Assembly (NCBI RefSeq): GCF_000003605.2
Contig: NW_003109080.1
Location: 128,998-167,506, forward strand
From: Saccoglossus kowalevskii
Taxonomy: Eukaryota; Hemichordata; Enteropneusta; Harrimaniidae
Length of the DNA: 38,509 bases
Direction: 5' to 3'
Shown here: piece by piece, positions 2,441 to 37,055 of the stretch
How positions within the stretch are numbered: position 1 is the first letter of the stretch
Layout of the letters: each line of letters begins with the position of its first letter
Position numbers and translations under genes: made by a program
The notes under the pieces: generated by a model
What the model was told of the DNA's origin: nothing
Databases searched by the model: none
Seen by the model: the letters and a program-made list of their open reading frames with translations, nothing else

Positions 2441-2452
2441 CATTGTCACTGT

Positions 2453-7023: not shown

Positions 7024-9803
7024 TCAACCTTTCCACGGTTTGTCACACATGTAAAAGGCCAAATTATCTACCGGTATGCCAGTATCTTGAGCAATACAAT
7101 GAATTCCATTGTTATTTAATGATGGTGGATTTATGTAGCATTCAAAGATTTTCCAGTTCAATGACTCAGTTATAATCAGTGCATTCGGATTGTCAGTATT
7201 AAGAAACTCCTTTGCGAAATCAAGAACAACTGGAATACCATAATAATCTGCGATGTAAGATGTGGAGATGCGATCAAACTTAGCTTCAGAACTAATCTCT
7301 TTGGTTAGTTTGAAACAGTCACACAATAAGACATTGAACGACATTAAACCATGCTTCAAGTTAGTACCAAACTGTTCAATTTCATGAGATATATAGTTCC
7401 TGTACATGGTGATTACAGAAGGAACGTCACAATAAGCTTTGGCATCAACGTAGTCCCATCCAGTGAATGGAAGGGCATTTGTTGGGAGACCATAAATCAT
7501 AGGCTCATTTTTGAGTGCTGATGGCATGTTGGGGAAACAACGGTCGTATGGCGATGCTCTAAACACATTCATACGTAGCAAAGTGACGTTTTGTTTTGTA
7601 AGTTTTGAGCGACGAGAATCTGTAGAAGCCACTAGGATTCCACTTTCCAACCATTCTTGAAGTGAAAGACGGTGATGGAAAGGAGCGCAGTTAACATAAT
7701 TCGTCCACCCGATTTTTGCATTGGAATCTGAATTATTCAACCACTTTCTTTGTTCCGCAATATGGAATTTAGGTCCTTCATTTTGACCTAATTCCTGCCA
7801 TAACAACCAAACGTTTTTAATAATATCCAAATGCTTTTCGGGTATTTTACATTTGCCACCTGTGTTTTTCAATATCGTAGAAGCATCACTTCTGATTAAC
7901 TCTTTCAGGTTTTTCTCGAGCACCTTCCAACACAATTCTGTCAAACATAGTGAGTACCATATCTGGACCAGCATTTCTGCCATGCTGATGATGTCATCAC
8001 ATGTGAACAGTAGATAGAGAAATAATACATTACGAGCTTGGATATGAGGACTTGAATCATTGATACTAAACTCTACAAGCCCATTAAATTCGGATGGTAG
8101 TGATGCTCCCGTCTTTATAACATTTCTGAGATCACCAACACCACACAGTAGAAGAGAAAGTCGGTCTCGCCTTGTGTTACCTTCCCACTCATTGTGCATC
8201 AGATTTAATAAATCGACAGCGGGTGTGTTTCCCCAATAGTAAACACTCAGTGTCTCATACTGTCTAACCATATCTGACCTCCAAGGTGCCATCTCCATCT
8301 GTTGTGCTATCTTGCGAATATCGTCTTGTACTGCTGTACATTTTTTCTGATGGGTCGGCCACGCCTCAGTCTGACATTTGTCCCCACAATACCATTCTTG
8401 TAGACAAGCTGAACACTGCTTAACCACGACGATGTCCCTTTTGCAGTTGCCACATTGTCTAATCTTCGCAGCATTGTCACATTCACCCTATATCGTTCGG
8501 CAGAAGAAAAACCATGTGAATATAAACAGTTTAAATGTCACACATTCAGTAATAGTTTGTAATTTATATCACCGGATGCACACTGTATTTTTTAGACATT
8601 ACCAGTATTGATATCAGCAAAATATGGTCTCATTTTGAGATATGTGCAATAGTTCAATAATTGTAGCCTACATTTGAAAATGGGTTAAGTATGTAGGGGA
8701 TCTTACTGCAAGATAAAAACACAATGCAACATAGGTCCAGAGAAGTCCAGCTCCGATGTAGAGTTGCATATGACAGCTAATACAGCTACTATTCTTGCAT
8801 GTGATTTACAACAATTATTAACGATAGTAAATAAGCTTTTACGTTATATAGGCAATATACCCTCACAAAACTATAGGTCAAGAAATTTAGTAAACACCTG
8901 CACCATAGATTAGCATATCATGCAATAAATGGCTGAAACTCATCTATCACTTAATGTGTTTGTTCATAGACCTTAGAAAACGGGGACATGCTATTGTGGG
9001 TATCCCTTTCGTGTAACCTTAGTTATAATCCTCTACCCAATTAACACCTTAGTGAAACTGACAATAAAGCTATGTCAACACCACTGTTACATCCTCTCTT
9101 GTTCCATAAGCTAAACATGGCTGCCAGGGAGTAGCTATACAAAATAAGCCAACTTTGTGGTTAGAATATAATCAGAAAAATTACATTTCATTAAAACTGA
9201 ATAGCCAAGTCCATTCTATTGATACGAGTGGAATTGAAAATTGCAAAGTTAACAGTTTTTATTTCACTATGAAAACAGGAAAGGGAAATAAAAATGGTCA
9301 GTTTTCTCTGCAAGAAAACAAAACTGCCTAAACGTAAACAATGACCTGTCAACATTTGTGTCATTATAAGCAGTGGATTTTTCATCATATTTAGAACTGA
9401 TATGACATAGTGCACCCGTTATACACTGACAAATGTGAATATTGGCACAGCATAACTTATCAAACATATAAAAAAAGGTAAGAACTAAAACTGTTTCAGA
9501 TGTATAGGTATATGTATTAATGGAACTATCTATACAGGAGATTATAACCCACGTTGCACACAAGAAACTGGATTTTCCTTTGTTTCAGACAGAAGTTGCA
9601 TGTCCCTGTTTTCTAAGGTCTATGGTTTGTTGAACATTAGTTGAAGCCAACAGTTGTGATCGTAAAATAGCTGTAATTACCTTGTGTCTAAATTTGTCAT
9701 CGTATAAACACCCTTCACCGTAATACACTGCCATACAGCACCGAGTACACGTGACTCGCTGTTGATTTCCACAACGCCAACACTTGCCAATTTTAGCATC
9801 CAT
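7024..9803 (-). CDS. MYND zinc-finger protein, DUF4470-like family, two exons
   Basis: Exon 1 is 9803-9681 (41 codons) and ends AAG|GTAATT. Exon 2 is 8487-7024, preceded by an acceptor ending TATAG. Both junctions are phase 0, giving 528 residues. The start is the ATG at 9803; a TTGCAG three bases upstream looks like an acceptor, so a 5' non-coding exon may exist. Residues 8-44 form a MYND-like finger (C8, C11, C19, C22, C32, H40, C44) in which the usual Cys of the Tyr-Cys pair is Tyr28. The finger spans the splice junction, which supports the model. Residues 53-91 form a complete second MYND finger: CGNC, CSAC, WYCGDKC, HQKKC. A motif SLLLCGVGDLRNVIKT follows, as in the family of animal MYND proteins carrying a DUF4470-like region. 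MYND fingers bind protein partners; the role of this family is unknown to me. The frame ends before the conserved C-terminal motif, which lies out of frame at 6789-7020, so this may be a truncated or recently damaged copy. Confidence 0.72.
8958..8964. repeat. Left target-site duplication GTTTGTT
   Basis: Seven bases directly abutting the left inverted end of the intronic transposon, repeated exactly on the far side. Confidence 0.8.
8965..9624. mobile_element. 660-bp non-autonomous DNA transposon (MITE-like) with 26-bp TIRs
   Basis: The ends are inverted repeats of 26 bases differing at one position. Both begin CATAGACCTTAGAAAAC and end GGGACATG. The element is flanked by a perfect 7-base direct repeat GTTTGTT (8958-8964 and 9625-9631), the expected scar of a transposase insertion. 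There is no transposase reading frame, so it is non-autonomous. A 7-base duplication with CA...TG ends would fit P-like or Dada-like elements, but I cannot assign the superfamily. It sits wholly inside the MYND gene intron. Confidence 0.85.
9625..9631. repeat. Right target-site duplication GTTTGTT
   Basis: Exact direct copy of the seven bases at 8958-8964, abutting the right inverted end of the transposon. Confidence 0.8.
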
Positions 9804-12067: not shown

Positions 12068-12309
12068 AGCGCGGTAGTCGTCGCGCTGCGCATGTACTAG
12101 ATATATGGGTCACATATAAACAAAGATGGCGACTTTGACTTTCATGTGATTGGAGCGTATCGAAGGAGTCACCAGCGGTAATCAGTGCAAGTCGCACCCA
12201 GGTCAAACCTCATACTTGTGATTTCCATTTGAAGAGCGCATTGGATTGTGGGAAAATCAATGTTTATCAGCACAAATGTCAAACATGCCCGACGACTACC
12301 GCGCTTTAA
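12064..12309. mobile_element. TTAA-flanked MITE with perfect ~20-bp TIRs
   Basis: The left end TTAAAGCGCGGTAGTCGTCG at 12064 is repeated exactly in inverted form at 12290-12309, where the plus strand ends CGACGACTACCGCGCTTTAA. The element is about 246 bp. Its interior includes AACAAAGATGGCGACTTTGA and GAGCGCATTGGATTGTG. Closely similar interior sequence occurs at 26.48-26.84 kb, confirming a repeated element. It has no open frame of note. Confidence 0.75.
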
Positions 12310-13172: not shown

Positions 13173-14315
13173 TCAAATGCTATGGATGGTAAAATTGACA
13201 CACTCTGGCGCTGTGGAATCAGGAATAATCCGTGCACTAGTTGTCAAGTAGTTTTTGTGACCAGTTATCTTTATGATTTGTTGTGGTGGAATACCGGCTT
13301 TCGTCAGGGTTTGAACAGTCGTCTTCCGAACAGAGTGGTTTGTTTTTCTTCCGGTAAAGGACATGGAAGCGGCAGCTCGGGCATGAATGATGCTATCTTG
13401 TTTTTCCCCATCGGACGAGAAGAATACCACGAAAGTGAGTTGACACGAGATGCGGGAATCTGTTGGATATAAAACGGACTGTCGAGCCCGCATGTATTAA
13501 TCGGACGGTGTCGAACATGCTCTCTATAAATTCGGACAGGGTCCCTGGAACTGTCGGGAAGGGCAAACATACGAGGGGGGGGGACCACACGCCGATCACC
13601 ATATTTCCATCAGGAGTCTTAGTGTCGCGTTCTTTGAACTGCAGAAATTCGCGTCCCGAACCATCTCGTTGTACAGTAATGTCTCCATGGCACAATTTTC
13701 TATGTTCATCCCGGCCGCGAAGTCCGAAATGTTTGGTAAATAAATACCACAGCGTGAAATTGAGGGTGTCTCCATCGGCGGTCCCTAGTTTACCTTCTTT
13801 CCACATTGCGTCTTCTTCTTCCGGAGATATTGCTTCACTGGCGTGACTACCGCAACCGAGGCCAGTTTTCTTGAGGCGCATCTGTTTTGCCTTCAAAGCA
13901 TCATTTGTTAACGAAAAATGTTTATCACACAGAGATACTCCGTAGTTGTTTTCGGTGAGATATCTTTCTAAGCTGTGCTTTATTGCAGAGACGGATCCTG
14001 GTTCATAATCAGTTCCATCCTGTTTCTTCAGGTTAACAAAGAATGTGTACTCGTTCAGTGTCTTAGGTGGAATCTCCGATAGCTTACGGTGGTCGGCATA
14101 TCGGCTCTGAATATAACTCCGTACCTTTGCGACGTCTCGTTCAGTTGTACGAACTGTGCTTGCTTTCGTTGTGATTTTATAAAATCGCCCACAGCTTCTA
14201 AATCTTCTTTCCCGACACTTTCCGCGACACTGTCGACTTTATCATCACCAAATAATAAAGAGTCCAACTGGTCTTTCAGTATATTTCCCATCCACTGAAT
14301 AATATCGTCAGCCAT
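13173..14315 (-). pseudogene. Crypton-type tyrosine recombinase (DUF3504-like), frameshifted
   Basis: Read on the minus strand from ATG at 14315, the protein starts MADDIIQWMGNILKDQLD. It shifts frame near 14160 and then runs on without a stop to about 13590, through VAKVRSYIQSRYADHRKL, LNEYTFFVNLKKQDG and LNFTLWYLFTKHFGLRGRDE. A second shift lies near the nine-G run at 13575; the next frame gives PPRMFALPDSSRDPVRIYRE. A third shift near 13390 leads to TNHSVRKTTVQTLTKAGIPP and KITGHKN. These are hallmarks of the recombinase found in Cryptons and in genes derived from them: the Arg in GLRGRDEH, the HxxR box in NHSVRKT and the GH of TGHKN. The catalytic Tyr expected a few residues later is not at its usual spacing. 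Such enzymes integrate circular DNA by site-specific recombination. With three frameshifts this copy is dead unless the shifts are sequence errors. I found no terminal repeats, and none are expected for Cryptons. Confidence 0.82.
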
Positions 14316-14622
14316 TATCAAAGCGCAGACGATAATCTCAAATTACGCGCGTTGTTTGTAAACAGAAAGTAGTTCCAGGAAATAGACGCGTTTACCAAAT
14401 ATGGCAAACGGGGCCCGAGCGTGATATGGAAAATTATTGCACGGCCCGGCTCGCGCATCGGGATTCCCATAGCGTTACGAGGCCGGGCAATACGACGTAT
14501 ATGATAATACCGACTATGACTTGTTGAAATATTCCCTGGTGCGCTCTAGTCATGCAAGGAATTACCTAATAGAACATCTCTTTTTTTGCTGTTTTTTTAT
14601 CAGCGTCGTCATCTTCGTATTC
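14316..14622. other. Region between Crypton-type gene and inverted repeat
   Basis: This stretch includes a GC-rich block (about 14410-14490, with ACGGCCCGGCTCGCGC), unlike the surrounding AT-rich DNA. It may be the 5' leader or promoter of the Crypton-type element. No coding frame was recognised. Confidence 0.35.
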
Positions 14623-15041
14623 ATATCTCGGGCACGACTACAGCCATCACTTAATTTACTGGTAAAAATATGGAAACTGGCCACCCCGAACACGCCAAGA
14701 AGCAAGCATCACTGAACTGATATTCGACAGTTATAGCACGAAATTCTTTTAGATACTGTAATCTCAGTGTTTTTTGGTTCATGTGTGATACGTTCAATCC
14801 GAATGACCATATCGGCCGTTCCCACATTGAAGAAATATATCCTGATATCATAACACTAACATAATTTTCATATGAGTTTTTATGTTTGCGTAATCCTGTT
14901 TTGTGGTGGGGTTAGATGTCCATGTGATGACTCAATATGCGATGATGGCCTGTATTAGGATTTTAATCACCTTAACAAAGCAACAAGGCAACCCATTATT
15001 TCTGGGTAAATTATATAAAACAATTGTTGCTAATAATGAAA

Positions 15042-15074
15042 AATTATCTGCGTTACGTAGATTAGCAGATAATT
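15042..15074. repeat. Perfect 10-bp hairpin in left-arm-specific sequence
   Basis: AATTATCTGC (15042-15051) is repeated in inverted form as GCAGATAATT (15065-15074), with a 13-base loop. It lies in the part of the left arm that lacks a clear counterpart in the right arm and could mark a small inserted element. Confidence 0.5.
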
Positions 15075-15405
15075 GTTATCTATTTGTATGTAAATTATTC
15101 ACAGGTGGGATTCCACATGCTCTGATTGGTTAGTGGCTAAGTAGCCAGGTGAGCATATAGTAGACAGAGTATTCTATTGTATTCAGTCTCCGTTCCAATA
15201 TGGCATGAATATTATGTCCGTTTGACGCAAACGGAAGAGTGTGCCTTGCTTGCAATTCGTGTTTTATCAATTGTATTTAAATAATCTTTGTAATTATAAT
15301 CTTGTTAGGTTTTGAAATTGATGAGCACCAATGAAAACCCGAGGGTTGGACGGTTCCCGGAAAAAGAACAGTGGTGTGAATGTGCACTTGTGTATATTCA
15401 ATATG

Positions 15406-15411
15406 TTTATT
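15406..15411 (-). promoter_or_regulatory. Poly(A) signal AATAAA of left lectin gene
   Basis: AATAAA on the minus strand about 320 bases past the lectin stop codon. A matching AATAAA occupies the corresponding place in the other arm (25669-25674), and both lie in otherwise diverged 3' sequence, which supports function. Confidence 0.6.
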
Positions 15412-15728
15412 GTGAGAAATGTTAGTCCAGACAATTGCTCGTACTTGGCCAAGTCAATTCACCTTGCTCAAACCTAAAAACGTGTATAGAAAGATCATAT
15501 ACAGATACGAATTAAAAAAAAATGTATAAATATATCAGAATGTTGTATTTCGACTTATTGTTACTCCATCAGCTCTAACGATACAGTTGGAATTCACTTA
15601 AAACCAAAACATAATTATATCGTATTTGAGAATGTGAACACAATTTGCTATGACGAAAGCTGTGATTTCATTGTGAAAGTTACACTCCTTTACAAAGTGG
15701 TTATTATCCAATGACTACCCACACCTTT

Positions 15729-18700
15729 TCAGTGCACATAATTATAAGATGTAAGAACGGCTGCAACTGTGGGTACGACTATGGCACAAATTATGACAGT
15801 CACGAATGGTACCAGAAATATATCTGTAAAGATATGTATAGATTATATAGTCAGTAGAAGCTATATAAAACACACATATACACGCGTTTACACAATTCAT
15901 AATTCAAATATCCACTTGGCAAATTTAACATAGGGGAGGCAATGGCTAGATATAAATGATGTCACACATGCGGCGGGCATATCACTTTCATATCATGTGT
16001 ATGATGTAATCATATCACCAAAATACTCGTATCACTAGCTTATATATCACGTGAATGTATTGACCCAATCAAATCGCTCGCGTTCCCACTACGTAGATAT
16101 ATTCACAGATTTCACACGTTTCAAGCACAGACTACTGGATGTATTTGCGAGTATGTATTACAGAAATGTACCGACCCAATCATACGATATCACCGAGTAT
16201 TGTCACCACCCTTAAAAATTGTAACAACGTAACATCGAATTCATGCAACAATATACGGCTAGTTAATTGGCTATTTCCTTAAATTCGTAATAGGTATAAC
16301 TTAAAACATCAGGAGGTTATGTCATAATTCATACCATACATTCATACATACCGTATCTGAACACACAGCCGCATTTAGTAGTTGTTTCTTGTGGTTCCAG
16401 ATTTTCCGTAGTTTTGTCTTCAGTACCATGGTCATAGGTAGTAGTTTCTAAATCAGTGTACTGTACATGTTCGGTGCTGATGTGTGGCGTGGTCTTCTCT
16501 TCATCAGTTGACATCCTTGTCCTAACAACAGATGCTTGATTAATTGATTCATGGGCAAATGTAGTGCTTGCAACCGATGTCGACAGTTGAGTTGTGTTAA
16601 ACGTGGACGACACTTCAGATTGTGTTGTACTTATAGTTTTTCTGGAGGGTTCAACTATTGAAGAAGAATAACACAGTACGAAATAATTATAAAAGCTTGC
16701 CATACAAACAATATTCTCGTAAAATGTGCACACATGACACTTGTTATTTGGCATACACATTTATATAGCAGAGTTCCGCCTCTCCCATCTACTCGCACTT
16801 GAGAGTTCGCGTTGTATATTTTAAGTAGACATTGGACCTTTAGCCTACCCAGATTGCCTATTTTATCATGTTCACTGAGTTAGCATAACGCTTTGAAATA
16901 TATTTTAGTCAAAGCGAACAATATAACATCAACATAATTGTTTTATCTCAATATGGTCTCATACACAGTGGCAAAGTGGTCAATACAATGGTGCTTGCTT
17001 TATGTTGACTTATTTTGAGAAACACAAATCCTCTCACCAGGGTATGATTCACAAATATACGGATAGTGATTATCACATGGAACATCATTCCATGTACTGG
17101 TTACCGCCCCATCTCGTAGGTCCAACACTACACAGTCCTCATTACCACCATTATCATTGGGTTCACCTGTACCCCAGTTTGAATATAACATATCTGCTTC
17201 CCCACACATGAACCTTCCTTCTTCCTGTCGGAATACGAGAAGACGACATGCAGTGATTAGCACAGTACAGAGTTAACTAAATTTATAAAGTCTAAATGGG
17301 CCGGAGATATTATTATATTAAGTATTATATATATGGTATGGTCTTTATTTACAAGTTCAAGGTCATCGGCCCATATATGTATATACATAGATATTCTTAA
17401 ATTACAAAAAATATGAATGGCAATATCGCTTACAAGTTTCAAAGTATGCACTGGCTGCCAAACTTTTAATCACATTGGTTTTTTGTGAAGTTAATAATTC
17501 TACAAATTTATAAACAGATGAAGGGTTGAAATAGTATTTTGGAATATACAATTGACGAAATTGTGAATAAAATGGACATACTAAACAAATTGGTATTCGT
17601 TTTAAATTTGATTTGATTCAAAATGTTTATTTGCTTATGTATATCTTTTAAGGTTTGTGATTTGATTTTATATTTTAAATATTTTTGTGTTTTTCTCGTT
17701 ATTTTATTTTTATGTGCGCAAATCACGCGATTATATAGTAGCTAAATAAATATATTGGGTTATAGTTCAGAATGTGGTAGGAAATGATATTCCAAAAATC
17801 ATGGTAGTTCAGTGTAATAAAGAAGTATGTAATTATATGAAGTCTAAATGAATCTGACCCATTGATTAAGCTTTTCACATCATGGGTGACTATAACCATT
17901 ATCTCATGATATTGATAGTTTTACAATAATCATTGAATTATTGTAACGAAATGTATTAATTTGAGCATTTTTGGTAGTTTCAGAAGTCGGTTAAAATGCC
18001 GCATATATGTGAAATTTCTAAAAATAAACTTATTTTTAAATAATGTAAAGTAGGCACAAGACACAAGATAACTAAAATGATAAGCAAATTCATAGTCATC
18101 AACAGAAATTCACAAGTTCAATAATTAAAACTTATAATTAAGTCTCAAATAATAAGTTTAAAATAATTACAGTTGTATACTTGAATTGTACTTATTTTGG
18201 AAATCTTTTTGGGGGCATGTTTCGAATGATGCAAAATGATGAGACCAAAGTATGTATATGGTTAAAATTTACTTGAATTTCATTTATTTTCTCAACAATA
18301 ATGTTCTGATTGCTGGTGGTTGGAAAACACAAAGTAAGTACACCCTAAATTACTAATTTTCAACAAGATGCAAAAAAAGTATATATTAGCTAAACTTGTA
18401 ACATTCTTACCTTACAAGAAGTGTACTTTAAGTGAAATAAATATACTTAAAGTACAATTCGAGCCAATGCTGGCTATATACTCTTTCTAGTAATTTGAAA
18501 GATTTCGCGAGATCGACATATTAGCGATCAATATTTCTTAATTTATAACATAACAAGATACTGAGTTGTTGATAACCAGTAATACTATTGAGGGCAGATC
18601 TAGATAGTTCAGTGAATATGTATAGCATCTTCTTAGGAATCAGGAAATTGTTTTGACTTGCATTGTTTCTTTCTAATAAAAAACTCCATTGTTTCAGTTT

Positions 18701-20213
18701 TACATTGTTTCTAAAATTGTTGTCTAGAATTTAAATTTCTAGATGATTGAGATGTATCAAGTTTTCCCAAATAGACGTTTTGTCAGAACTCATGTCTGAC
18801 ACAAATAGTACATCCATAATCTAACATTGACATTGACATATTTTACTGTCGTAGTCAAAGTCACATCACATTTTTTTGTATGGTATGAAACATTTTTCAA
18901 CCGGAAATTGCGTTTGCAAGATTTTGATGAACAAAGCTTATTCTTGATTTCAATGGTCACTTCCTTCCCTACTTTGGAGCTTCGAACACATAAATATTAA
19001 ACATTTTCTATTACTAAAAAACCTGACACCTTTTGGCCACGGATTATTTGCTTGATTATATCTAGTATATATATTTAGAGGGCAACAAATGATAGTCATT
19101 GTAATAAATTTACAAACTCGAAATGTTATTAACATGATTGTTTTTGTAACCGTGTGATAAAAATTTTAGTTTATTAGACACACAAATATACATTCATCAT
19201 AATAGCAGCAAAAACACTTAATTGGAGTTCTTACGCCATATGGATGATACTATGCACATATCTTCGGGCGATTTTAATTTTAATTGTGTGTATTAAAAAG
19301 CTTTTTAAAACTTATGCCTGAAACAGAAAAACACGTTAATGCGTCAAGATGGTTAAGGATATGTTACAATCGCAAGCACATGCTATGAAATTAAGTCATA
19401 TTTATTTATTCTATTTGTTTTTTTAAATATGTAAACAACTTAATGGAGATTGATGCTTTGTCAACATTATCTCAGCATTAGTCACTTGTATCCAGTCACT
19501 TGTATAATTTTGGAAGGTTATTTGAAAATTTATCGTTTATTTTTCAAGAGTTACACATATGTAAATAAAAAGAAATTACTTCAGTATACCTCCTTGGAAT
19601 GCCAAATTGGCAATATTTACTTAAAATTGGAAGTCTTAAATTGTCATTTCAAATTTAGAATGATTGTGTAATTAATTTGATTATTATTGGAAAGTCAACA
19701 ATGTAAGTACGGCCAGAATCATCATTGATAATTAATTTTATGTGGACATACAAGTCAATGTACATGTATTGTCAACATAATGCAAATTTAACATTGAGAC
19801 CAAATATTTGAGTTGACTCAACAAATACAACTAATATTTGAAGGCTTATTAGAAAAAAATCGCTGCTATAGGGTCTTAAGATGTTTGGATAAGTCGCAGC
19901 TATATGAATCGGTCAAGCACATAACATGTGTGTTTATGGTAAAGTTTGATTTTACTAACCGCACTATCAGTACATCCAAGATACCAATACAGATGAGATG
20001 GTACCCCAAACGGGTTGCCATGACGCCTCTTCAGTCCTTCGTCGTATAGAAAGGCGTTTTCTGCTTCTGAATTGGGCACAGCAAGTGTAGCACCCCATAT
20101 ATGTTCGCAGTTGTCCATAGCTGTTGCCCAGGTGTTAAAATAACCAAGATGTACTGAACTTGTAGCATGACCGACTGAAATGAAACCCAACCATCGTCAC
20201 ACTCTAATGACAA
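15729..20213 (-). CDS. Membrane C-type lectin, left copy (5' end in gap)
   Basis: Exons on the minus strand are A 20213-19960 (incomplete at the gap), B 17224-17038, C 16654-16352 and D 15823-15729 (stop TGA). Junctions are phase 0, 1 and 1, all GT-AG, matching the right copy. Exon A carries the first half of a C-type lectin domain: ECDDGWVSF, SCYKFS, LGYFNTWATAMDNCE, ending YWYLGCTDSA. Exon B carries the second half: YSNWGTGEPNDNGGNEDC, then STWNDVPC and YPYICES. It keeps the Ca2+ and sugar-binding signature EPN...WND, which in classical family members favours mannose-type sugars. Exon C (101 codons) is a Thr/Ser-rich, probably O-glycosylated stalk ending KCGCVFRY. Exon D encodes one hydrophobic helix (FLVPFVTVIICAIVVPTVAA) and a tail of a few residues. 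I infer a type I surface receptor whose signal peptide is in the gap. In the last ~70 bases beside the gap, ECDDGWVSF, SCYKFS and LGYFNTW fall in three different frames: sequence error or early decay. Confidence 0.78.
17225..19959 (-). other. Intron A-B of the left lectin gene
   Basis: A 2.7-kb AT-rich intron with donor GTTAGT and acceptor CCGACAG. It is alignable with the 2.5-kb intron of the right copy. No coding sequence was recognised inside. A block near 19.2-19.32 kb (with AAAAAGCTTTT and a CATATGG) recurs in the right arm and, diverged, at 28.7 and 37.0 kb. Confidence 0.6.
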
Positions 20214-20214
20214 A

Positions 20215-21070
20215 NNNNNNNNNNNNNNNNNNNNNNNNNNNNNNNNNNNNNNNNNNNNNNNNNNNNNNNNNNNNNNNNNNNNNNNNNNNNNNNNNNNNNN
20301 NNNNNNNNNNNNNNNNNNNNNNNNNNNNNNNNNNNNNNNNNNNNNNNNNNNNNNNNNNNNNNNNNNNNNNNNNNNNNNNNNNNNNNNNNNNNNNNNNNNN
20401 NNNNNNNNNNNNNNNNNNNNNNNNNNNNNNNNNNNNNNNNNNNNNNNNNNNNNNNNNNNNNNNNNNNNNNNNNNNNNNNNNNNNNNNNNNNNNNNNNNNN
20501 NNNNNNNNNNNNNNNNNNNNNNNNNNNNNNNNNNNNNNNNNNNNNNNNNNNNNNNNNNNNNNNNNNNNNNNNNNNNNNNNNNNNNNNNNNNNNNNNNNNN
20601 NNNNNNNNNNNNNNNNNNNNNNNNNNNNNNNNNNNNNNNNNNNNNNNNNNNNNNNNNNNNNNNNNNNNNNNNNNNNNNNNNNNNNNNNNNNNNNNNNNNN
20701 NNNNNNNNNNNNNNNNNNNNNNNNNNNNNNNNNNNNNNNNNNNNNNNNNNNNNNNNNNNNNNNNNNNNNNNNNNNNNNNNNNNNNNNNNNNNNNNNNNNN
20801 NNNNNNNNNNNNNNNNNNNNNNNNNNNNNNNNNNNNNNNNNNNNNNNNNNNNNNNNNNNNNNNNNNNNNNNNNNNNNNNNNNNNNNNNNNNNNNNNNNNN
20901 NNNNNNNNNNNNNNNNNNNNNNNNNNNNNNNNNNNNNNNNNNNNNNNNNNNNNNNNNNNNNNNNNNNNNNNNNNNNNNNNNNNNNNNNNNNNNNNNNNNN
21001 NNNNNNNNNNNNNNNNNNNNNNNNNNNNNNNNNNNNNNNNNNNNNNNNNNNNNNNNNNNNNNNNNNNNNN
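20215..21070. other. Assembly gap (856 N)
   Basis: A run of unknown bases exactly between the inverted arms. Both flanking contigs stop inside the same part of lectin exon A. The missing part would hold both signal-peptide exons and both promoters if the arrangement is real. The non-round length suggests an estimated gap. Confidence 0.98.
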
Positions 21071-24000
21071 GTTCAGTAGATCTTGGTTATTTTGCCAACC
21101 TGGGCAGCAGCTAAGGACAAGTGCGAAAATCTTGTGGGATGCTGCGCTCTGTGCCCAATTCAGAAGAAGAAAACGCCTTTCTATACGAAGAAGGACTGAA
21201 GAGGCGTTATGGCAACCCTAATGAAGTACCTTCTCATCTATTTTGGTATCTTGGATGTACTGATAGTGCGGTTAGTAAAATCAAACTTTACCATGAACAC
21301 ACATGTTGTATGTGCTTGATCGAGTCATATAGTTGCGACTTATCCAAACATCTTAAGACCCTATAGCAGCGATTCTTTCTAATAAGCCTTCAAATAATAG
21401 TTGTATACTAGATTTGTTGAGTCAACTCAACTATTTGGTCTCAATGTTAAACTGCATTATGTTGACAATACATTGACTTGTATGTCAACATAAAATTAAT
21501 TATTAATAATGATTCTGGCCGTAGCTACATTGTTGACTTTCCAATATTAATAATCAAATTAATTACACAATCATCCTGAATTTGAAATAGTCACCAAAAT
21601 GAAATTGTTCAGACTTCCAATTGTAAGTAAATATGGCCTATTTGACATTCCTAGGAGGTAAACTGACGTAATTTCTTTTCGTTTACATATGTGTAACTAA
21701 ACGATAATTTTTCAAATAACTTTCCAAAATTATACAAGTAACTGGATACAAGTGACCTATGCTGGGATAATGTTGGCAAGAAATCAATTTCCATTAAGTT
21801 TGTGTTTACATATCTAAATCATCTAATTAAAATAAATAAATAAAATAAGTAAATAAATAAATATGACACTTTTAATTTCATAGTATGTGCTTTCGAATGG
21901 AACATATCCTTCACAATTTTGACGCATTAACGTGTTTTTCTGTTCCAGGCATAAGTCTTAAATAGCTTTTAATACACACAATTAGAATTAAAATCGCCTG
22001 AAGATATGTGCATAGTATCATTCATATGGCGTGAGAACTCCAATTAAGTGCTTTTGCTGCTATTATGATGAATGTTTATTTGTGGTGTCTAATAAACTAA
22101 AATTTGTATCACACAAATACAATAATTATATTAATAAAATTTCGTCGTCTCTGGAGTTTGTAAATTCGTTTACAATAAGTATAATTTGTTGCACATCTAA
22201 ATATATATACTGGGTATTTCCAATACTGATATGCAATGAACCAAAACACAAACCGTTCCCAAAACGTGTCAGTTTTTTGAGCGATAGCAAATTTTTAATA
22301 TTTATGAGGTCGATGCTCAACAGGGGTGAAGGAAAATGGACAATGAAACCAAGAATAAGCTTTGTTCGTAAAAATCTTGCAATCGCTATTTTCGTTTGGA
22401 AAATTTGTATACCCTACAAAACGATGTGATGTGACCACAACAGTGAAATATGTCAATGTTAATGTTAAATTATGGATTTTCTATGCGTGTCAGACATAAG
22501 TTCTGACAAAACGTTTGTTTGGGTTGATGCATTATTCAAAACATGCCCCCCAAAGATTTCCAAAATTAGTAATTATTTAAGACTTCATTAATTATTAGTT
22601 TTGGTGATTGAACGTAAATTTCTTTCGATGACTATGAATTTGCTTATTAAGTTAGTTATCTTTTGATTTCTACTTTACATTATTTAAAAATAAACAAAGA
22701 CATGACCAGGGTGTCTTTCAAATCATTACCCACAATGCTTTGTAGTTTAGTTTTAGAAATCTCACATATATGTGGCATTTTACCGACATCTGAAAGGAAT
22801 GTTCAAATTTATATATATTTCGCCAAGAAATATTGTAAAACCACCAATATCATGAGATAATGGTTATAGTCAACCATGATGTAAAAAGCTTAATCCATGG
22901 GCCAGATGTATATAGATTTTTTATATATAATTACACTGAACTGCCATGATTTTTGGAATATTTTTGTCCCACCATTATTTAGCTACCATACAATCACGTG
23001 ATTTGCGCATACCAAAAAAATTCAATAAGGAGAAAAATACATCACTATTTAAAATATTAAATAAAACCCCAAACCTGTACATGTCCAAGAATCTTAAAGC
23101 GATACATAAGCAAATAAAATTGTTAAGCTGGGACTGCATCCCATTCTACGTTATGAACAAATGTATCTTGTAGAAAACTTGTTAAACTATCAGGGGCACG
23201 ATAACGTATGTTCTGGTTTAATTTTAAAAAGAATATTTAACATTTACTCATATCTATTAAACGCTTTTGTTATATCAAACGCATGAGTCACCTCCAAATA
23301 TCAGTCTCTGGTGAAGCACTTAGAATTTTATAGGCCATTCCTGTTCTAAGTCTAGTAATAATGACTGTGCAACAATTATGTTTTAATGAATGGTCACTAG
23401 AAGCAAAGTAAAAAAATTGATGTTCAGCGACCAGACACATAGACAAAACTCGTGTATAACTTAGCTGAATTTTATAGTTATTCGGCAAATTTTAGTCTGA
23501 TTCAAGATGTTTTTGTTATGTTTATATTGATCAATTAACGAGGAAAGAAGATAAATGAAATCCAATAACGTTGTATATGTGCATAGTTATATGACTCCAC
23601 GTCTTACCTTAGCATACGTATTGGATGTATATACTTAAAATTATTATATTCTGAAACATCAAAGGTCACAGTAGTAGTAACTGTTGTATAATAACACTTA
23701 ATATAATAATATATCCAGCCCATTTAGACGTAATTAATTTAGTTAACTCTGTTCTGTGCCAATCACTGCATGTTGTCTTCTCGTAATTCGACAGGAGGAG
23801 GGAAGATTCATGTGTGGGGAAGCAGATCTGTTATACTCAAACTGGGGTACAGATGAACCCAGTAATGGTGGTGGTAATGAGAATTGTTTAGTGTTGGACG
23901 TACGAGATGGGGCGGTAACCGACACATGGAATGATGTTAACTGTGGTATTCGCTATCCGTATATTTGTGAATCATATCCTGGTAAGAGAATTTGTGTTTC

Positions 24001-25290
24001 CTTAAAATACACATAAGTAAAAAAAACAAGCACCCTGGTATTGACCACTGTGTATTAGACCATATTGAGATAAAAAATAGTGTTGATGTTATAATATGTT
24101 AGCTCTGATAAAAATATATTGAGTTCAAAGCGTTATGCTAACTGAATGAACATGCTAAAATAAGCAATCTGGGTAGGCTAAAGGTCAAACGTTTACTTCG
24201 AATTCTCATGTGAGAGTAGAAGGGATAGGCGGAACTATATAAATGTGTATGAAAAATAACAAGTGTCATGTGTGCACATTTTACAAGAATATATGTGAGG
24301 AAGCTGCAATCCATTGTTTTTATGACAAGCTTTTATAATTAATTCGCACTGTGTTATTCTTCTTTAGTTGTTGAACCCTCCACGCAAACCATAAGTACAA
24401 CAATCACAACACAATCCAAAGGTTCGTCTACGTTTAAGACAACTCAGCTGCCAACATCAGTGGAAAGCACTGCATATCCACCAGAATTTGACATCTTAAC
24501 ATCGGTTGCAGGCACTACACTTGCATCTGTTGTTAGGACAAGGATTTCAACTGATGAAAGCAGCAGCACTGCACATGTACAGTACACTGATTTAGAAACT
24601 ACTACCTATGACCATGGTACTGAATTCGAAACTACCGAAAATCTGAAACCACAAGAAACAACAATTAAATGCGGTTGTGTGTTCAGATACGGTATGTATG
24701 AATATGTGGTATGAATTATGGCATAACCTCCCGATGTTTTAAGTCGTGCTTCTTACGAATTAACCAATTTATTTGCCGTTAATTGTTGCATCAATTCGAT
24801 GTGTTACAAATGTAATGGTGGTGACAATACTCGGTTATATCGTATGATTGGATCGGTACATTCCTGTAATACATACTAGCAAATACATCCAGCAGTCTGT
24901 GCTTGAAACGTATGAGTGTGTGAACGAGGTGGGAACGCGGTCGATGTGATTGGGTCAATACATCTCCGTGATATGTAAGCTACTGATACGAGTATTCGGA
25001 AGATATGATACAGTACATGAACATGATATAAAAGTGATATGCCAATCGCATGTGTAACATCATTTATATCAAGCCATGGCCTCCCCTATGTTAAATTTAC
25101 CAAGTGGATAGTTGAATTATGAATTGTGTAAACGCATGTATATGTGTGTTATGCATATGTTCTACAGACTATATAATCTATACATATCTTTACAGATATG
25201 TTTCTGGTACCATTCGTGACTGTCATAATTTGTGCCATAGTCGTACCCACAGTTGCAGCCGTTCTTACATCTTATAATTATGGACACTGA
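21071..25290 (+). CDS. Membrane C-type lectin, right copy (5' end in gap)
   Basis: Exons are A 21071-21270 (starts at the gap), B 23795-23981, C 24368-24691 and D 25196-25290 (stop TGA). Splice sites are GCG|GTTAGT, ACAG|GAGGAG, CCTG|GTAAG, TTTAG|TTGTT, TACG|GTATGT and TACAG|ATATG. Exon B reads YSNWGTDEPSNGGGNENC, then DTWNDVNC and YPYICES. The sugar-specificity tripeptide is EPS instead of EPN, so Ca2+ or mannose-type binding may be altered. Exon A reads EENAFLYEEGLKRRYGN and ends FWYLGCTDSA, but LGYFA, TWAAAKDKCENLVG and SVPNSEEENAF are in different frames. Two frameshifts thus lie within the ~110 bases next to the gap. Exon C (108 codons) is a Thr/Ser-rich stalk ending KCGCVFRY. Exon D gives the transmembrane helix FLVPFVTVIICAIVVPTVAA and a tail ending YNYGH. 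From exon B onward the gene is intact and spliceable. It is the divergently transcribed partner of the left copy. Confidence 0.77.
21271..23794 (+). other. Intron A-B of the right lectin gene
   Basis: A 2.5-kb AT-rich intron bounded by GTTAGT and TTCGACAG, alignable throughout with the left copy. No reading frame of recognisable family lies inside. Confidence 0.6.
21829..21863. repeat. AAAT-type microsatellite
   Basis: Imperfect tetranucleotide run in intron A-B of the right lectin gene. The left arm lacks an equally long run at the matching place. Confidence 0.75.
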
Positions 25291-25668
25291 AAAGGTATTG
25301 CAAACTAACCACATTGTAGAGGATTGCAATGTATAACTTTCACAATGAAATCACAGTTTTTATCAGAGTAAACTCTATTCTCAAATACGATATAATTATG
25401 TTTTGATTTTAAGTGAATTACAACTGTATCGTTCGAGTGGATGTAGTAACGATAAGTCGAAATACATGTTTCTTATATATTTGCACTTGGTTGAGTTTAG
25501 TAGTAATGTTCGACTTTCACATATATCACAACTTATGACGGATGTATCAGTAAATAGGCATTTTATATATTTAATTTTAAAGTCGTATCTGTATATGATT
25601 TTTCTATAAACGTTAGGTTTGAGCAAGTTGAAATTATTTGGCCAATTTTCTGGACGAAAATTTCTCAT

Positions 25669-25674
25669 AATAAA
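25669..25674 (+). promoter_or_regulatory. Poly(A) signal AATAAA of right lectin gene
   Basis: First AATAAA after the stop codon, about 380 bases downstream, with a positional equivalent at 15406-15411 in the left arm. Confidence 0.6.
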
Positions 25675-26474
25675 TATATTGAATATACACAAATGCACAT
25701 TCACACCACTGTGATGTTCTTCCGGGAGCCGTCCAATTCCTGGGATTCTATCGGTACTCATCAATTTCAAAACTCCGCCTCCGTCCACTAATGCTTAGCA
25801 TCCCTCTGTCTCATCAATTCCCTAAACATAACTGATAAAAGCGTTCTTTAACAGGGTCATAATAAAAAAAAGATTATTTAAATGCAAATGATAAAACACG
25901 AATTGCAAACTAGGCACACTTTGTCTTTTGCGTCAAACGGACATGAAAAACAGTTTTCGGTCATAGTTCTAAACAATAAACATTCCTGACATTGTATATT
26001 TGGCATCCATACTCAACTTCAATTAATAATAGAAATTACACGCATGAAATACGGTATGCAGTGGATACAGTACCCAGGAGCAACACGCGTTTACTACAAG
26101 TATTCCCCTTACATATGTACATATACGCGAAATAATTGATGCTTAAGCCTCGTTAAGAGGGACATACCTCTGAAAAAATCTGAAAACCTGTACCCGAAGC
26201 AATGTCAGATGTACCTAGGGGTGGATTAGTGTGATGATAACAGGAAATATTTCTTCCATGTCTGAATAGCCGATATGGTCATTCGGATTGAATGTACTAG
26301 TATCACTCATAAATCCAAAACAAGCACTGAAATTACAACAACAAAATTTCAGGCCATAACTGTCGAATATCAGTCCAGTGATGATTACTTTTTGACATTT
26401 TCGGGGGCGGCCAGTTTCCCTCTTTTACCAGTAGATTATGTGATGGCTTTAGTCGTTCCCGAGATATAGTTTCC

Positions 26475-26835
26475 ATGTGAACGAAGATGGCGACTTAAAG
26501 TGTTACCAAGGTTCTGTTAAGTAACTTCTTGCATGATTGGAGCTCATCAACGAATATTTCAATAGCCAATGTCGGTATTAGCGCACATCACGTACAAGTT
26601 CAAAATTCACGTTTGTGCTTGCCAATTGGAGAGCGCATTGGATTGTGGAGAAATCAAAATGTATAAACACAAAAGGGTTCTGACCCGAAGCGTCTGGTTT
26701 TTGTTATTTTCTTTCCCAATGTGTCGCCAAATTGTCTCATCCCTTATTTGGGTCATTTTGGTGTATATTTGTATCCTATCTACTTGTATCAATACAATAC
26801 TCGCACATACTTGGCGCGACGAATACTGTCCTTAA
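26475..26835. mobile_element. Relic of the TTAA/GCGCGG MITE family
   Basis: The interior matches the element at 12064-12309: GAAGATGGCGACTT near 26484 and GAGCGCATTGGATTGTG near 26630. The right end TTGGCGCGACGA...TTAA (to 26835) matches the right end of the 11959-12067 element. No intact left inverted end was found. It begins immediately where the right arm of the big inverted repeat ends. Confidence 0.6.
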
Positions 26836-28372: not shown

Positions 28373-28694
28373 AACTATTATATAAAACAATGTTCTAGGA
28401 ACCTTTCTTTCTAAGCATAAATAAATCTGCAGGTGCACTCGTTGTTTGACGGATTTGAGGCATGATGTGTAGCAAGAACGCGGCAACCGATGAGGGTCAC
28501 GACCGTACTTTATGAAAAGTGTCACGTTTTTTTGCGTTATATTTTTTCATATTTCACGCATTTATAATTAATATTTGATTTCCATTTTTAATGGTTTTGT
28601 TGATTAGATCAATATAAATTCAAAAGCAAGAGTGAAAATGAAAATCACAAATTGAAATCCAATTTATACATTTGTAATTTCACCGTACTGTGAG

Positions 28695-28990
28695 CACAAC
28701 TCGTTCAACTACGTGGTTGATTTTGTTTATCTTCCGTGCGTTATACTAAGACATTGACGTTAAAAAGCTTTTAATACAATTAGAATTCCCAAAGCACTTA
28801 AGTGATCAAAATAAGATCTTATTACACAATACTCCATATGGTGTGTGTAGTTTATTTTTTATTTCCGCTTTTGATTTGTCAGCCCATTTAACAAGAACAT
28901 CACATCAAAGGCTCAACAGAGGAAAGCAAAAAACAAACTTAAATATTGTACGTCTTAAAATTTCTGCAAGCCTTTTTGCCTCGGAGTGTA
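28695..28990. repeat. ~0.3-kb repeat, inverted copy at 36.74-37.06 kb
   Basis: The block from AACTCGTTCAACTACGTGG to GGAGTGTA matches 36740-37055 in reverse complement with many identical runs, such as ATAAGATCTTATTAC and AATACTCCATATGG. A more diverged version occurs in intron A-B of both lectin genes near 19.2-19.3 and 21.96-22.07 kb, so it is probably lectin-intron sequence. It precedes the broken lectin exons at 30.1 and 31.0 kb in the expected order. Confidence 0.7.
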
Positions 28991-30078
28991 TTCAAGATTA
29001 AAAATATTACTGTCACAAGACATAGAAAATATGGTATGGGCCTTAAGACAAACGAGAGATAACATATCAAAAATCAAAATATCTGATATAAAGTTTTCAT
29101 CATACAAAAAGCACAAAGCTGTTCTTAATTATCGAGCCTGTTTACCTGACTATCGTTTTGCTTGTTACCAGCTGTTCACTGAAATCCGAATAAGGTTTTC
29201 CACAACGGCATACTGCCAATCATAATATTTCATGGGTAATGAGCAAAGTATTAACGGCATATTAAGACGTTCCTGGAAAATAGGTAAATAGATGAACAAA
29301 AGACCGGTAACCGAGAAAATTTCATTTTGGAGACTTTTCTCTGATAATAATAGAAATGTGATTAAAATTTTACTTCTGTGAAATCCCTTCTGTAAAAGCC
29401 CGAGTATGAGAAAATTATCTTGGATATAAAGTCCGACGCGAGATAAAACGTCACTGTTCTCCTGATATTTGCATACTGAAATTATGGCAGGTGGTCCATA
29501 TACACAACATCTGCAAAATAATCTTATTTTTTTTCTATTAATCATATCTTTGTGAATTTGTATCATTTTGTCATTTAATAAATTTCCACTGAATTGTTAT
29601 TACTTTCTTATCCATGTAATTCATTCCTTTCCATTTAGCACACGATTTTCAAATACGTTTTGTCCAATAAGTGGGCAATGTAATGACACACACGCAAATT
29701 CTTCAGAAACAATGTGTATTCAATTTGTACTTAATTCTCAGAAAGTTCTTTTACAGACTAATTCTAAACTTATTGTGTTCTGTGCAGAATCGCTTGCTCT
29801 TTCGCAGATTACGTCAATCTGTTTGGTAGTTTTGAAAGAATTATGGCAGAGATTATAAACATATGAACGGTATTGCAATGAATAATGAACAGACATGTTT
29901 ACACATAAACTTCTACTTCCATAATTGCTAGCATCAGAAAGCAAACGCATTTGACTATAGTTGAAAAAATATTAAACTTCAGTTAATATTTGCATTCATA
30001 ATATGTTGCCAATACTCGTGGCATATACAAGCATATGCACACTCTAACTCGTGCGATTACATATATTAATTCTGACAG
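28991..30078. other. Remainder of degenerate lectin intron, nothing recognised
   Basis: AT-rich sequence lying where intron A-B of the third lectin unit is expected. The open frames at 28986-29225 (+) and 29165-29566 (-) have no family resemblance that I can see and overlap each other. Confidence 0.4.
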
Positions 30079-30219
30079 GAGGATGGAAGATTCATGTGCG
30101 GGGAAGCAGATATGTCATATTCAAACTGGGGTGCAGGTCAAACCAATGATAGTGGCGGTAATGAGGATTGTGCAGTGATGGACGTACGAGATGGGGCTGT
30201 AGCCGAAACATGGAATGAC
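30079..30219 (+). pseudogene. C-type lectin exon B fragment, third copy
   Basis: After an intact acceptor (CTGACAG) the frame reads RFMCGEADMSYSNWGAGQTN and continues through NEDCAVMDV to AETWND. Homology then stops abruptly, before the last two conserved Cys residues and the donor. The specificity tripeptide is QTN, unlike EPN and EPS in the other copies. Without the C-terminal strand and its cysteines the domain could not fold normally. It is the third member of the local lectin family and a relic. Confidence 0.8.
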
Positions 30220-31016
30220 CGCAAGTTTGAAAGTATTCTCTTTAGTCAAAATTACTGCCAAATATTTTGGTCATGGAATGAAAACATTCTATTAATATGG
30301 GGAACCCTCACTATTTGGCTGGGAAACTTTAACTGATTTATTCCTAACAGACAGTAAACACATGGAATAAACTGAATAGTTACCTAACACTGAAATATTT
30401 TCTTATCAAAAAGCAAATAATATAGTGTAATCATAAACAAAACTAAAACTTTTTTTTATTTCACGTTGGATGTAGTGAACAAGCTTTACTACAGGAAACT
30501 CGTGGTAATGACCTAGACGGACAACTGGTTGTTTAGTCGTTCGTCGTTTACACACGTATTGTTAGTAATGACGGCCAGTAATTAACACAATATTAATAAT
30601 TTGCATCACATAAGCGCCCCATCGCTAGCGGGCGCGGCTTATTAAAAATAGTGTATTGTTTACATCAATGATATTATTTTGAACTTTAGCCCGTCAATAA
30701 AAGAAAATACATTTTTGAATAATTGCCGTGTTCTCATTTGTGTCCACGCAACCTTCGCAGTCGAATTATTTCGTTACTTTTATTCACCTTCGTCATGTGT
30801 TACGTAGGTTCGTGTTATTGGTTATATATTGTCGTCCATTGCCAACGAGTATCTGAGGTTAATTCAATTATCCGCCTATTTACTGGCAGTTTGCGCTGAG
30901 GCTTTGTCATTGATCATGTTGTTGTCATCTGACATTTATAATTCATACTATATAAGTAAATATATTTAGTAAAATTAGTAAATATATATTTATTCACTGT
31001 GTTATTATTTTTAATG
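30220..31016. other. Likely insertion between lectin relic exons
   Basis: The distance from the exon B break to exon C is about 800 bases here, against 386 from exon B to exon C in the right copy, so unrelated sequence was probably inserted at the break. A GC-rich imperfect palindrome (GCGCCCCATCGCTAGCGGGC, about 30,617-30,636) lies within it. No coding frame was recognised. Confidence 0.4.
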
Positions 31017-31345
31017 AATGAGCCATCTACACAAACAATAAAAAGGACTACACTATCAGATGAGTTGGTGCCCACCAATGAGACAGCTCACCATTCAACA
31101 AAACAACAGTCTACTTCAGTGAGAAGTACTACCTTTGCAATTGACTCCGATATATCGACATCAATGACAAGCACTATCGTTGCACAAGAATCAAATAATC
31201 AAACATATATTGGCAGCACTACTCAGGCAGATTTGCTTATGTCTACTTATAAAGAGTTGTTGATGTCACTCGTCGAAAATACTAACACTTAAAGCAACGA
31301 GAAACGTCAATAAAATGCGATGGTCAATTCAGATATGGCACGAAT
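31017..31345 (+). pseudogene. C-type lectin stalk exon C fragment, third copy
   Basis: The frame reads NEPSTQTIKRTTLSDELVPT and continues as a Thr/Ser-rich stalk, including KQQSTSVRSTTFAIDSD and TSMTSTIVAQESNNQT, equivalent to exon C of the other two genes. The acceptor AG present there (TTTAG) is TTTAAT here. The frame ends at a TAA before the KCGC motif, although the DNA for CAGATATGG of the exon end is still visible near 31,332. No exon D equivalent follows. This is a dead exon. Confidence 0.72.
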
Positions 31346-34182: not shown

Positions 34183-34740
34183 TTTTCGCCAACTATACAG
34201 TTATATGGATTGCCCCCAATCCTCAGTCAGATATACTGCCCTCCCATTTGTCAAATGGCTTCTTCCATCTTTCATCCAATTCTACTGTTGTTAATATGCA
34301 ATATGTTTCCATAGAAACAAAAGTGATTTATTTTGCTTTCTGCAAACAGAGTTTCTTTCTAGTACATTCTTCGTACTTCTATTTTAGTGTGTACAGTGCA
34401 GGGTGTAATTATATGAATACCTATCTCGAAATGGAAAATCGCAAATGGAAAGCGCAAATAGTGGGGTAATGTATAAGACAGTCCACAGTTCCTTAGAGAT
34501 TAGCTTAGCAACTGTGATTAGGCATGCAATGTATATCGAATATTTTGATATTCAGCATTCTGCTGGATGTAACTGTACACCCAATAAATGGATAATGTAA
34601 GATCAACAGAGCAGATGTTTCAACTCTGCCCATAGCATAATATATGCGTAAAGTAAATAACATGTAATTTGACTCAACTGGAAACTCAGGTGGTAACACT
34701 GAATCACGCTTATAAATTGGACAGACTCAGGACATTTGTC

Positions 34741-34780
34741 GTCCATCATTTCAACTTGGTGTCCATCATTTCAACTTGGT
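34741..34780. repeat. Exact 20-bp tandem duplication
   Basis: The unit GTCCATCATTTCAACTTGGT occurs twice, head to tail, without mismatch. Confidence 0.9.
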
Positions 34781-35132
34781 TTCCGGTGTGTCCTGCTACG
34801 ATATATAGTGATACAGGCTACACTCTGTGTGACTTGTATGATCTCCTGCTTCCAGCGGTGCCCTCCAGAATACCAGCGTTTCTCTGCAAGCAAGACTCCT
34901 GTATTTCTTCTTTGTTGGGTAGCAGAAGCCATTTACTGTCGTCCATTATTACATCATGGAAATGTGAGTTATCACCAATGCACACTTCCCTAAGCAATAC
35001 CCTATTTTAGTGAATTTATTTATTGTATTTTTCTGTGCTTTATTTCTTGTAATTATTTTGAACGGTATTAAAGCCATGAGCTTTAACTCGATATTTTGGT
35101 GTAAAACTATGTGTATTTCATTTCACTAGCAG

Positions 35133-35326
35133 TGAAAGAACCCCCTGTCCAGTGTGAGTTATGTGTGTGCCCTCTCATTAACGATAAGCAGGCCTTACAC
35201 TATGACAATAATTATACCACTGATGTCTCCGAAATTAAAGATCAAATATCGCATAATCGTTTGGAGTTTATCAACGAAAACACAAATACAGTACATTTGC
35301 CCCCTTTGACATGCAACAACAAATAG
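35133..35326 (+). CDS. Possible terminal exon, unknown protein
   Basis: An acceptor (TTTCACTAGCAG) is followed by an open frame reading KEPPVQCELCVCPLINDKQA, with a Cys-rich start and an acidic, polar remainder, ending in TAG. The phase is 1. It could be the last exon of a gene with exon(s) near 34.86 kb. No family is recognised, and it may be chance. Confidence 0.2.
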
Positions 35327-36739: not shown

Positions 36740-37055
36740 GCACTTCGAACAAAGGCAGTCTTGTAGCAATTTTAAGACGTGCAATATTTAAGTTTGCCTT
36801 TTGCGTTTCTCGGTTGAGCCTTTGAATATGATTTTTTGGTTAAATTGGCTGACAAATTAAAAACAGAAAAAATAGTAAACTTACACATACCATATGGAGT
36901 ATTATGTAATAAGATCTTATTGTGTTTATAGTGCTCTGGGAATTCTTTGGAATATTACTTGGGAATAATTGTCTGTATTAAAAGCTTTTTAACGTCAATG
37001 CCTTAGTATAACGCACGGGGGTTAAACAATCAACCACATAGTTGAACGAGTTGTG
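36740..37055. repeat. Inverted copy of the 28.7-28.99 kb repeat
   Basis: Reverse-complement match to 28695-28990, with shared runs such as GTTAAAAAGCTTTTAATAC and AACTCGTTCAACTA. It has extra sequence (about 20-30 bases) relative to the other copy near the middle. No lectin exon lies beside it at the distance seen in the intact genes. Confidence 0.7.

Follow-up and report, generated by a model that had tools for sequence, protein, structure and literature searches.

We analysed a stretch of 38,509 nucleotides of the genome of the hemichordate Saccoglossus kowalevskii (hereafter the window), which corresponds to positions 128998 to 167506 of scaffold NW_003109080.1 (C343) in an assembly of 572,110,611 bases and 4,830 contigs. 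It contains two C-type lectin genes, A and B, each lying in one arm of a large inverted repeat: arm A (positions 14505 to 20214) carries gene A on the minus strand and arm B (positions 21071 to 26580) carries gene B on the plus strand. When the window was compared with itself by blastn, seven inverted pieces of 69–90% identity joined 14505–20159 to 21071–26580. These pieces total 4,097 bits, compared with a best single score of 32.8 bits when arm A was dinucleotide-shuffled 100 times. The mirror-image similarity of the two lectin-bearing arms is real, and the large imperfect inverted repeat proposed in a first-pass annotation of the window, made from its sequence alone, is borne out. That annotation also had the arms matching throughout, which must be amended: homology does span exons, introns and 3' flanks, but the aligned share is 4,411 of the 5,710 bases of arm A (77%) and 4,456 of the 5,510 bases of arm B (81%), and the edges are corrected to those given above. 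Unalignable stretches are present in intron 1 and in the 3' flank, and one stretch found only in arm B is in part similar to repeats dispersed over the rest of the genome.

The symmetry axis is occupied by a run of 856 N (positions 20215 to 21070), the only such run in the window. The window thus consists of two contigs, each terminating within exon 1 of its lectin gene, and the two contig ends differ by 55 bases in their position within this exon. Since the N run lies on the axis, it is from the scaffolding that the arms are taken to face each other, and the start codons as well as any promoter lie in unsequenced DNA. The head-to-head arrangement within 1 kb proposed at first pass is allowed by the assembly, and it depends on one scaffold join across the 856 N.

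On its outer side, arm A stops where a dispersed repeat (positions 14400 to 14507) has its end. In a genome search with 14400–14900, 39 of the 41 matches listed (best 40 of 91 candidates) fell in this repeat, and 35 of these 39 ended at query positions 108–111. A DUF3504 reading frame and the end of the repeat (13393–14507) adjoin the arm here; we take DUF3504 to be a mark of Crypton-type elements. On arm B, 17 bases separate the outer end from a stretch resembling 12200–12276.

Exon structure and lectin motifs of the two genes

Splice-consistent exons, collinear and with matching splice sites, were placed in both arms, their edges being taken from splice anchors. In gene A (minus strand), exon 1 is partial (19960 to 20214, donor GTTAGT) and encodes the N-terminal half of the lectin domain, its gap-side stretch being out of frame. 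Exon 2 (17038 to 17224) encodes the C-terminal half of the domain with the motifs EPN and WND, exon 3 (16352 to 16654) a stalk with 35% serine plus threonine, and exon 4 (15729 to 15823) a hydrophobic C-terminal segment followed by the stop codon. Gene B (plus strand) has the same layout: a partial exon 1, again out of frame on the gap side (21071 to 21270), an exon 2 in which EPS replaces EPN while WND is retained (23795 to 23981), a stalk exon with 36% serine plus threonine (24368 to 24691), and an exon 4 with the hydrophobic C-terminal segment and the stop codon (25196 to 25290).

Exon 2 places both products among the C-type lectin domain proteins, with Pfam PF00059 (Lectin_C, cut-off 22.6) scoring 38.1 bits in gene A and 31.3 bits in gene B. 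Together with the collinear exons, these matches confirm the presence, in both arms, of a C-type lectin gene transcribed outward. The Lectin_C scores of exon 1 were under the cut-off (14.7 bits for gene A and 15.3 bits for copy D, a further exon 1 described below), although the correct part of the profile was covered. In both cases another family, also under its cut-off, ranked first (CBM53 and UL45, the latter a C-type-lectin-like protein). The in-frame part of exon 1 of gene B and three gap-proximal pieces gave no match in a search with the Lectin_C profile. In the PDB, exon 2 of gene A matches SP-D and mannose-binding proteins in sequence, its EPN and WND aligning with those of human mannose-binding protein, and the matches of the lectin exons also include the bivalve lectin codakine.

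Calcium-dependent sugar binding is expected of a domain with EPN or QPD plus WND. On sequence, gene A alone has this combination; gene B, with EPS and WND, lacks it. From these motifs and from the C-terminal segments, the products would be displayed at the cell surface and would bind sugars in a calcium-dependent manner, gene A through a mannose-type EPN and gene B through an altered EPS. The C-terminal segment of gene A is strongly hydrophobic, its 19-residue hydropathy reaching 2.75, and it might serve a glycosylphosphatidylinositol anchor instead of spanning the membrane. Transcription of A and B, whether separate or shared, would start in the unsequenced centre.

Other searches added little. 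The Rfam scan at the gathering threshold and the tRNA scan of the DNA gave no matches, and an exact search of genome-contig and viral-contig collections with a 32-base piece of exon 4 gave none. A protein search of the genome-contig collection confirmed one of 45 candidate stretches, in a Planctomycetaceae metagenome-assembled genome, which is uninformative here.

A lectin cluster on one scaffold

We searched the genome with five arm segments as DNA (15528–17333, 19660–20214, 21071–23690, 18234–18765 and 14400–14900), the best candidates being scored. Four lectin copies, A, B, C and D, were recovered, all on the scaffold of the window. The segments 21071–23690, 18234–18765 and 14400–14900 also matched other contigs, matches which we read as dispersed repeats. 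With exon 2 of gene A as a protein query, only A, B and C exceeded 54% identity among the 32 matches listed. Genome-wide, Lectin_C has at least 147 matches (among the best 150 of 480 candidates). As far as searched, A to D would thus form a subfamily confined to one scaffold of the assembly, inside a larger lectin family. The view of A and B as a paralogue pair is supported by their divergence, by their unrelated flanks (see below) and by the fact that the arm segments used as queries recovered no other close copy.

Copy C (30067 to 31339, plus strand) is a decayed third paralogue, with part of exon 2, carrying the motif QTN, and a diverged exon 3 that contains a stop and a frame change. Its exon 2 (30067–30218) is 86–87% identical to those of A and B in DNA, and its introns and stalk barely align. 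This similarity, over about 28 synonymous sites, possibly reflects exchange and possibly a differing constraint.

Copy D consists of exon 1 alone (C343:192718–193026, minus strand), some 25 kb beyond the right edge of the window. It is a single open exon that runs from an ATG through a signal-like peptide (recognised by eye, with no predictor) and a half domain to a donor site. Such an exon supports the model of four exons per gene put forward in the first-pass annotation. A separate signal-peptide exon within the gap had been considered and was dropped, since exon 1 of copy D itself carries the signal-like peptide.

The vicinity of copy D also resembles the right part of the window. Indeed, 34669–37873 recurs in direct orientation at C343:188909–192640, past a 20-kb N run, in three pieces of 92–96% identity, and there a stretch of about 0.6 kb with copy D stands where the window has about 50 bases. 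The two could be allelic, or a recent duplicate, with presence or absence of the exon. Within this region, 36621–37058 forms with 28692–29144 an inverted pair that is 72% identical, of which a further copy lies at C343:190740–191180.

Frame breaks in exon 1

Homology with copy D predicts the start codons inside the gap, about 59 bases from its edge for gene A and about 114 bases for gene B. The signal-peptide ends of both genes, like any promoter, would also fall in the N run, and the start codons would be about 0.68 kb apart provided that the gap size is correct. The same comparison reveals frame-changing length differences in exon 1, two in A, each an excess of one base, and three in B, with one site common to A and B. 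Both copies may therefore be recent pseudogenes, disrupted in exon 1. All of these breaks fall within about 82 bases of the gap, against none in about 1,490 bases of coding sequence farther away. The clustering of four breaks near the gap has a P value of 9e-5 (from a count made by eye, prior to the discovery of copy D), and it is what poor contig ends would give. Poor sequence at the contig ends is more likely than loss of both genes, the remainder of which shows coding constraint (see below). The excess at the common site is not explained by independent errors, and for this reason the pseudogene reading stays in play, although we consider it unlikely.

Divergence and constraint of the two arms

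Over 228 clean codon pairs of A and B, with the out-of-frame gap-proximal parts of exon 1 excluded, nonsynonymous divergence (dN) is 0.112 and synonymous divergence (dS) 0.215, for a dN/dS ratio of 0.53 (bootstrap 0.34–0.79). When exon 2 or the domain part is considered separately, the bootstrap interval takes in 1. Away from the gap, the coding sequences differ in length by 3, 9, 24 and 15 bases in the DNA alignment, each of these differences being in frame and located in exon 3. At the noncoding rate, 12.5 coding length events were expected, a comparison that counted three of the four observed. Given the ratio of 0.53 and solely in-frame insertions and deletions, both genes look constrained away from the gap, and A and B appear to have remained coding genes through most of their separate history.

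In noncoding DNA, the arms differ at 392 of 3,064 aligned sites (12.8%), a figure that omits the outer piece 14505–14859/26226–26580 and rises to 14.0% with it. Individual noncoding pieces differ at 10–16% of their aligned sites, and the outermost at 24%. These values bear on whether two haplotypes of a single locus were wrongly joined to give the two arms. There is a precedent in amphioxus, where a scaffold carries artefactual VCBP1/4 gene duplicates, according to the part of that paper available to us (PMC2632668), and the stretch of 92–96% identity found elsewhere on our scaffold could be allelic. In lancelet, however, the allelic values given in the accessible portion of the source are 4.39% for single-nucleotide polymorphisms and about 0.07 for dS (PMC4284660), so that the noncoding and synonymous divergences measured here are about three times higher. 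Moreover, the left 14.5-kb and right 11.9-kb flanks showed no inverted homology, the best inverted match reaching 28 bits (E 0.5). Because of this divergence and of the unrelated flanks, the arms are unlikely to be haplotypes, and we give this explanation very little credit.

Orientation of the two contigs

The main rival to an inverted duplication is that the contig to the right of the N run (contig 2) was misoriented or misplaced, in which case the lectin genes would really form a head-to-tail array and the mirror image would be a scaffolding artefact. As assembled, the strands are minus for A, plus for B, plus for C and minus for D; flipping contig 2 would unite all four on the minus strand. 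The contigs are joined solely through the 856 N, and their ends lie only 55 bases apart in the same exon. The genome itself offers both layouts. On the 28 contigs with at least two listed Lectin_C matches, 30 of the 44 neighbour pairs 2–30 kb apart among these matches are on the same strand, some of them perhaps exons of one gene, and 14 are on opposite strands. Eight of the latter lie on C4110, a contig of 37,799 bases with no gaps, in which a unit of about 8 kb with one lectin exon per strand is repeated four to five times at 97–99% identity. Lectin neighbours on opposite strands are thus present in this genome, and those on the same strand outnumber them.

Two further points speak for the orientation as assembled. 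The gap length of 856 is not a round number, as if it came from a paired-read measurement, and a MYND fragment at 27452–28356 matches the orientation of its relatives, an agreement that a flip of contig 2 would reverse. On balance we judge misorientation improbable. The MYND family forms a small group of its own: a reading frame with a MYND finger and DUF4470 lies at 7024–8487 (minus strand) and has two partial relatives by DNA, the above fragment and 2432–3649. Genome-wide, DUF4470 has four matches, and both full-length ones are on the scaffold of the window.

Possible exchange between the arms

The first-pass annotation saw in arm-to-arm gene conversion a plausible engine for diversifying a recognition receptor, with a bidirectional promoter that the two genes could share. 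The differences between the arms are clumped relative to permutation in four of the seven noncoding pieces (P = 0 of 1,000, 0.017, 0.024 and 0.008). A block of intron 1 adjoining exon 1 (19659 to 19959) is a candidate conversion tract: it differs from arm B at 14 of 293 sites, almost three times less than the 378 of 2,771 found elsewhere (Fisher 3e-6). In a scan of 300 sites, this minimum was reached in none of 2,000 permutations, sites being treated as independent; scans of 200, 300, 400 and 700 sites were significant (P of 0.0065 or less), and the 100-site scan was not (P = 0.15). Copy D has no DNA match to the block beyond 15 bases past the end of its exon, so that a long-standing constraint is not obvious. 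The block could be a past conversion tract, but also the result of local constraint, uneven mutation or read mixing near the contig end; this stretch of about 0.3 kb is the main hint of past exchange. In exon 2, 10 of the 13 residue differences fall within 26 residues around EPN and WND (one-sided Fisher 0.005, for a region chosen after alignment).

Other measures do not go in this direction. The longest identical run was significant in none of the seven noncoding pieces (smallest P = 0.078), and the G+C content of the arms is not elevated. We had suspected that divergence rises with distance from the axis, but there was no significant trend (Spearman P = 0.10, or 0.42 when the outer piece is omitted).

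Mammalian sex-chromosome palindromes also consist of inverted arms, and these arms carry genes. In the passages of the cited work on which we draw, their arms are more than 99% identical through conversion (PMC8981503, PMC3723533), whereas the arms described here differ at 12.8% of noncoding sites and have not been homogenised. The near-identity of a conversion-maintained palindrome is thus absent, the dN/dS ratio does not exceed 1, and the promoter that the genes would share lies outside the sequenced DNA. Exchange between the arms as a diversification engine is largely unsupported, the intron block being a hint of one past exchange at most, and a palindrome maintained by conversion, diversifying a receptor from a shared bidirectional promoter, appears very unlikely. 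A more specific variant, hardly more probable, would have the two facing genes, about 0.7 kb apart, expressed together from a common centre, with short conversion tracts near the axis keeping the 5' half alike and leaving the sugar-binding loop of exon 2 free to differ (EPN in A, EPS in B). If true, one locus would yield two receptors that share their front end and differ in specificity.

A probable inverted duplication within a small lectin cluster

Altogether, we favour the view that a membrane C-type lectin gene of four exons underwent a local inverted duplication within a small lectin cluster, and we put the probability of this reading at roughly 0.68. The arms are homologous and have diverged, their genes share one exon structure and are constrained away from the gap, and both belong to a cluster. 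Under this reading, the ancestral gene would have carried the signal peptide and the first lectin half in exon 1, the second half with the sugar and calcium motifs in exon 2, a serine- and threonine-rich stalk in exon 3 and a hydrophobic anchor in exon 4. It would have been copied in reverse orientation. Point changes and insertions, some of the latter being dispersed repeats, would then have driven the copies apart, with purifying selection acting on the coding exons. The facing orientation would be that of the assembly, and, provided that the contig join is correct, the duplication looks ordinary and old.

Several points weigh against this reading. The axis is an N run, so that the orientation of contig 2 depends on scaffolding, and the flip that aligns all four copies on one strand is mild evidence of misorientation. 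The near-duplicate of 34669–37873 at C343:188909–192640 may represent a second haplotype that was built into the scaffold, and this lowers trust in the scaffold's joins. Finally, the frame-changing differences near the gap, in exon 1 of both genes and with one common site, could mean a recent loss of function.

The locus belongs to known kinds and represents no new one. A literature search brought up no paper that we recognised as describing it, a result of little weight as the species name was not used. In Caenorhabditis, divergent paralogous gene pairs lie within long inverted repeats (PMC1803023). As here, two homologous divergent genes and their flanking DNA are found in an inverted repeat with a short centre; judging from the part of that study available to us, the main divergent example is 88.5–100% identical within species and occurs in three species, other pairs having partly lost the structure. 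Our locus, examined in one species, has arms that differ at 12.8% of noncoding sites and a centre that consists of N.

As for the lectins, bivalves have large, expanded C-type lectin repertoires (PMC10140915, PMC12842671), and the accessible portions of these papers describe, as seen or predicted in our genes, a single lectin domain, EPN/WND-type motifs, membrane-anchored forms and lineage-specific expansion. One of these bivalve lectins, CgCLec-HTM (QPS/WHD), has a C-terminal transmembrane segment that is termed unique among those examined, and the word EPS is absent from the text of that paper in the form available to us (PMC12842671). The amphioxus VCBP locus, to go by the excerpts at hand, likewise combines a receptor gene cluster rich in inverted repeats with complications of haplotype and assembly; its VCBP genes are immune-type and encode immunoglobulin V and chitin-binding domains, whereas those described here encode lectins (PMC2632668).

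The locus illustrates how a mirror-image claim can depend on a single scaffold join. Local duplication expands lectin families in many animals, and the orientation of the copies bears on shared regulation and on sequence exchange. In this respect, the two arms provide a modest test case, being old enough to have drifted apart, except in one stretch that has not.

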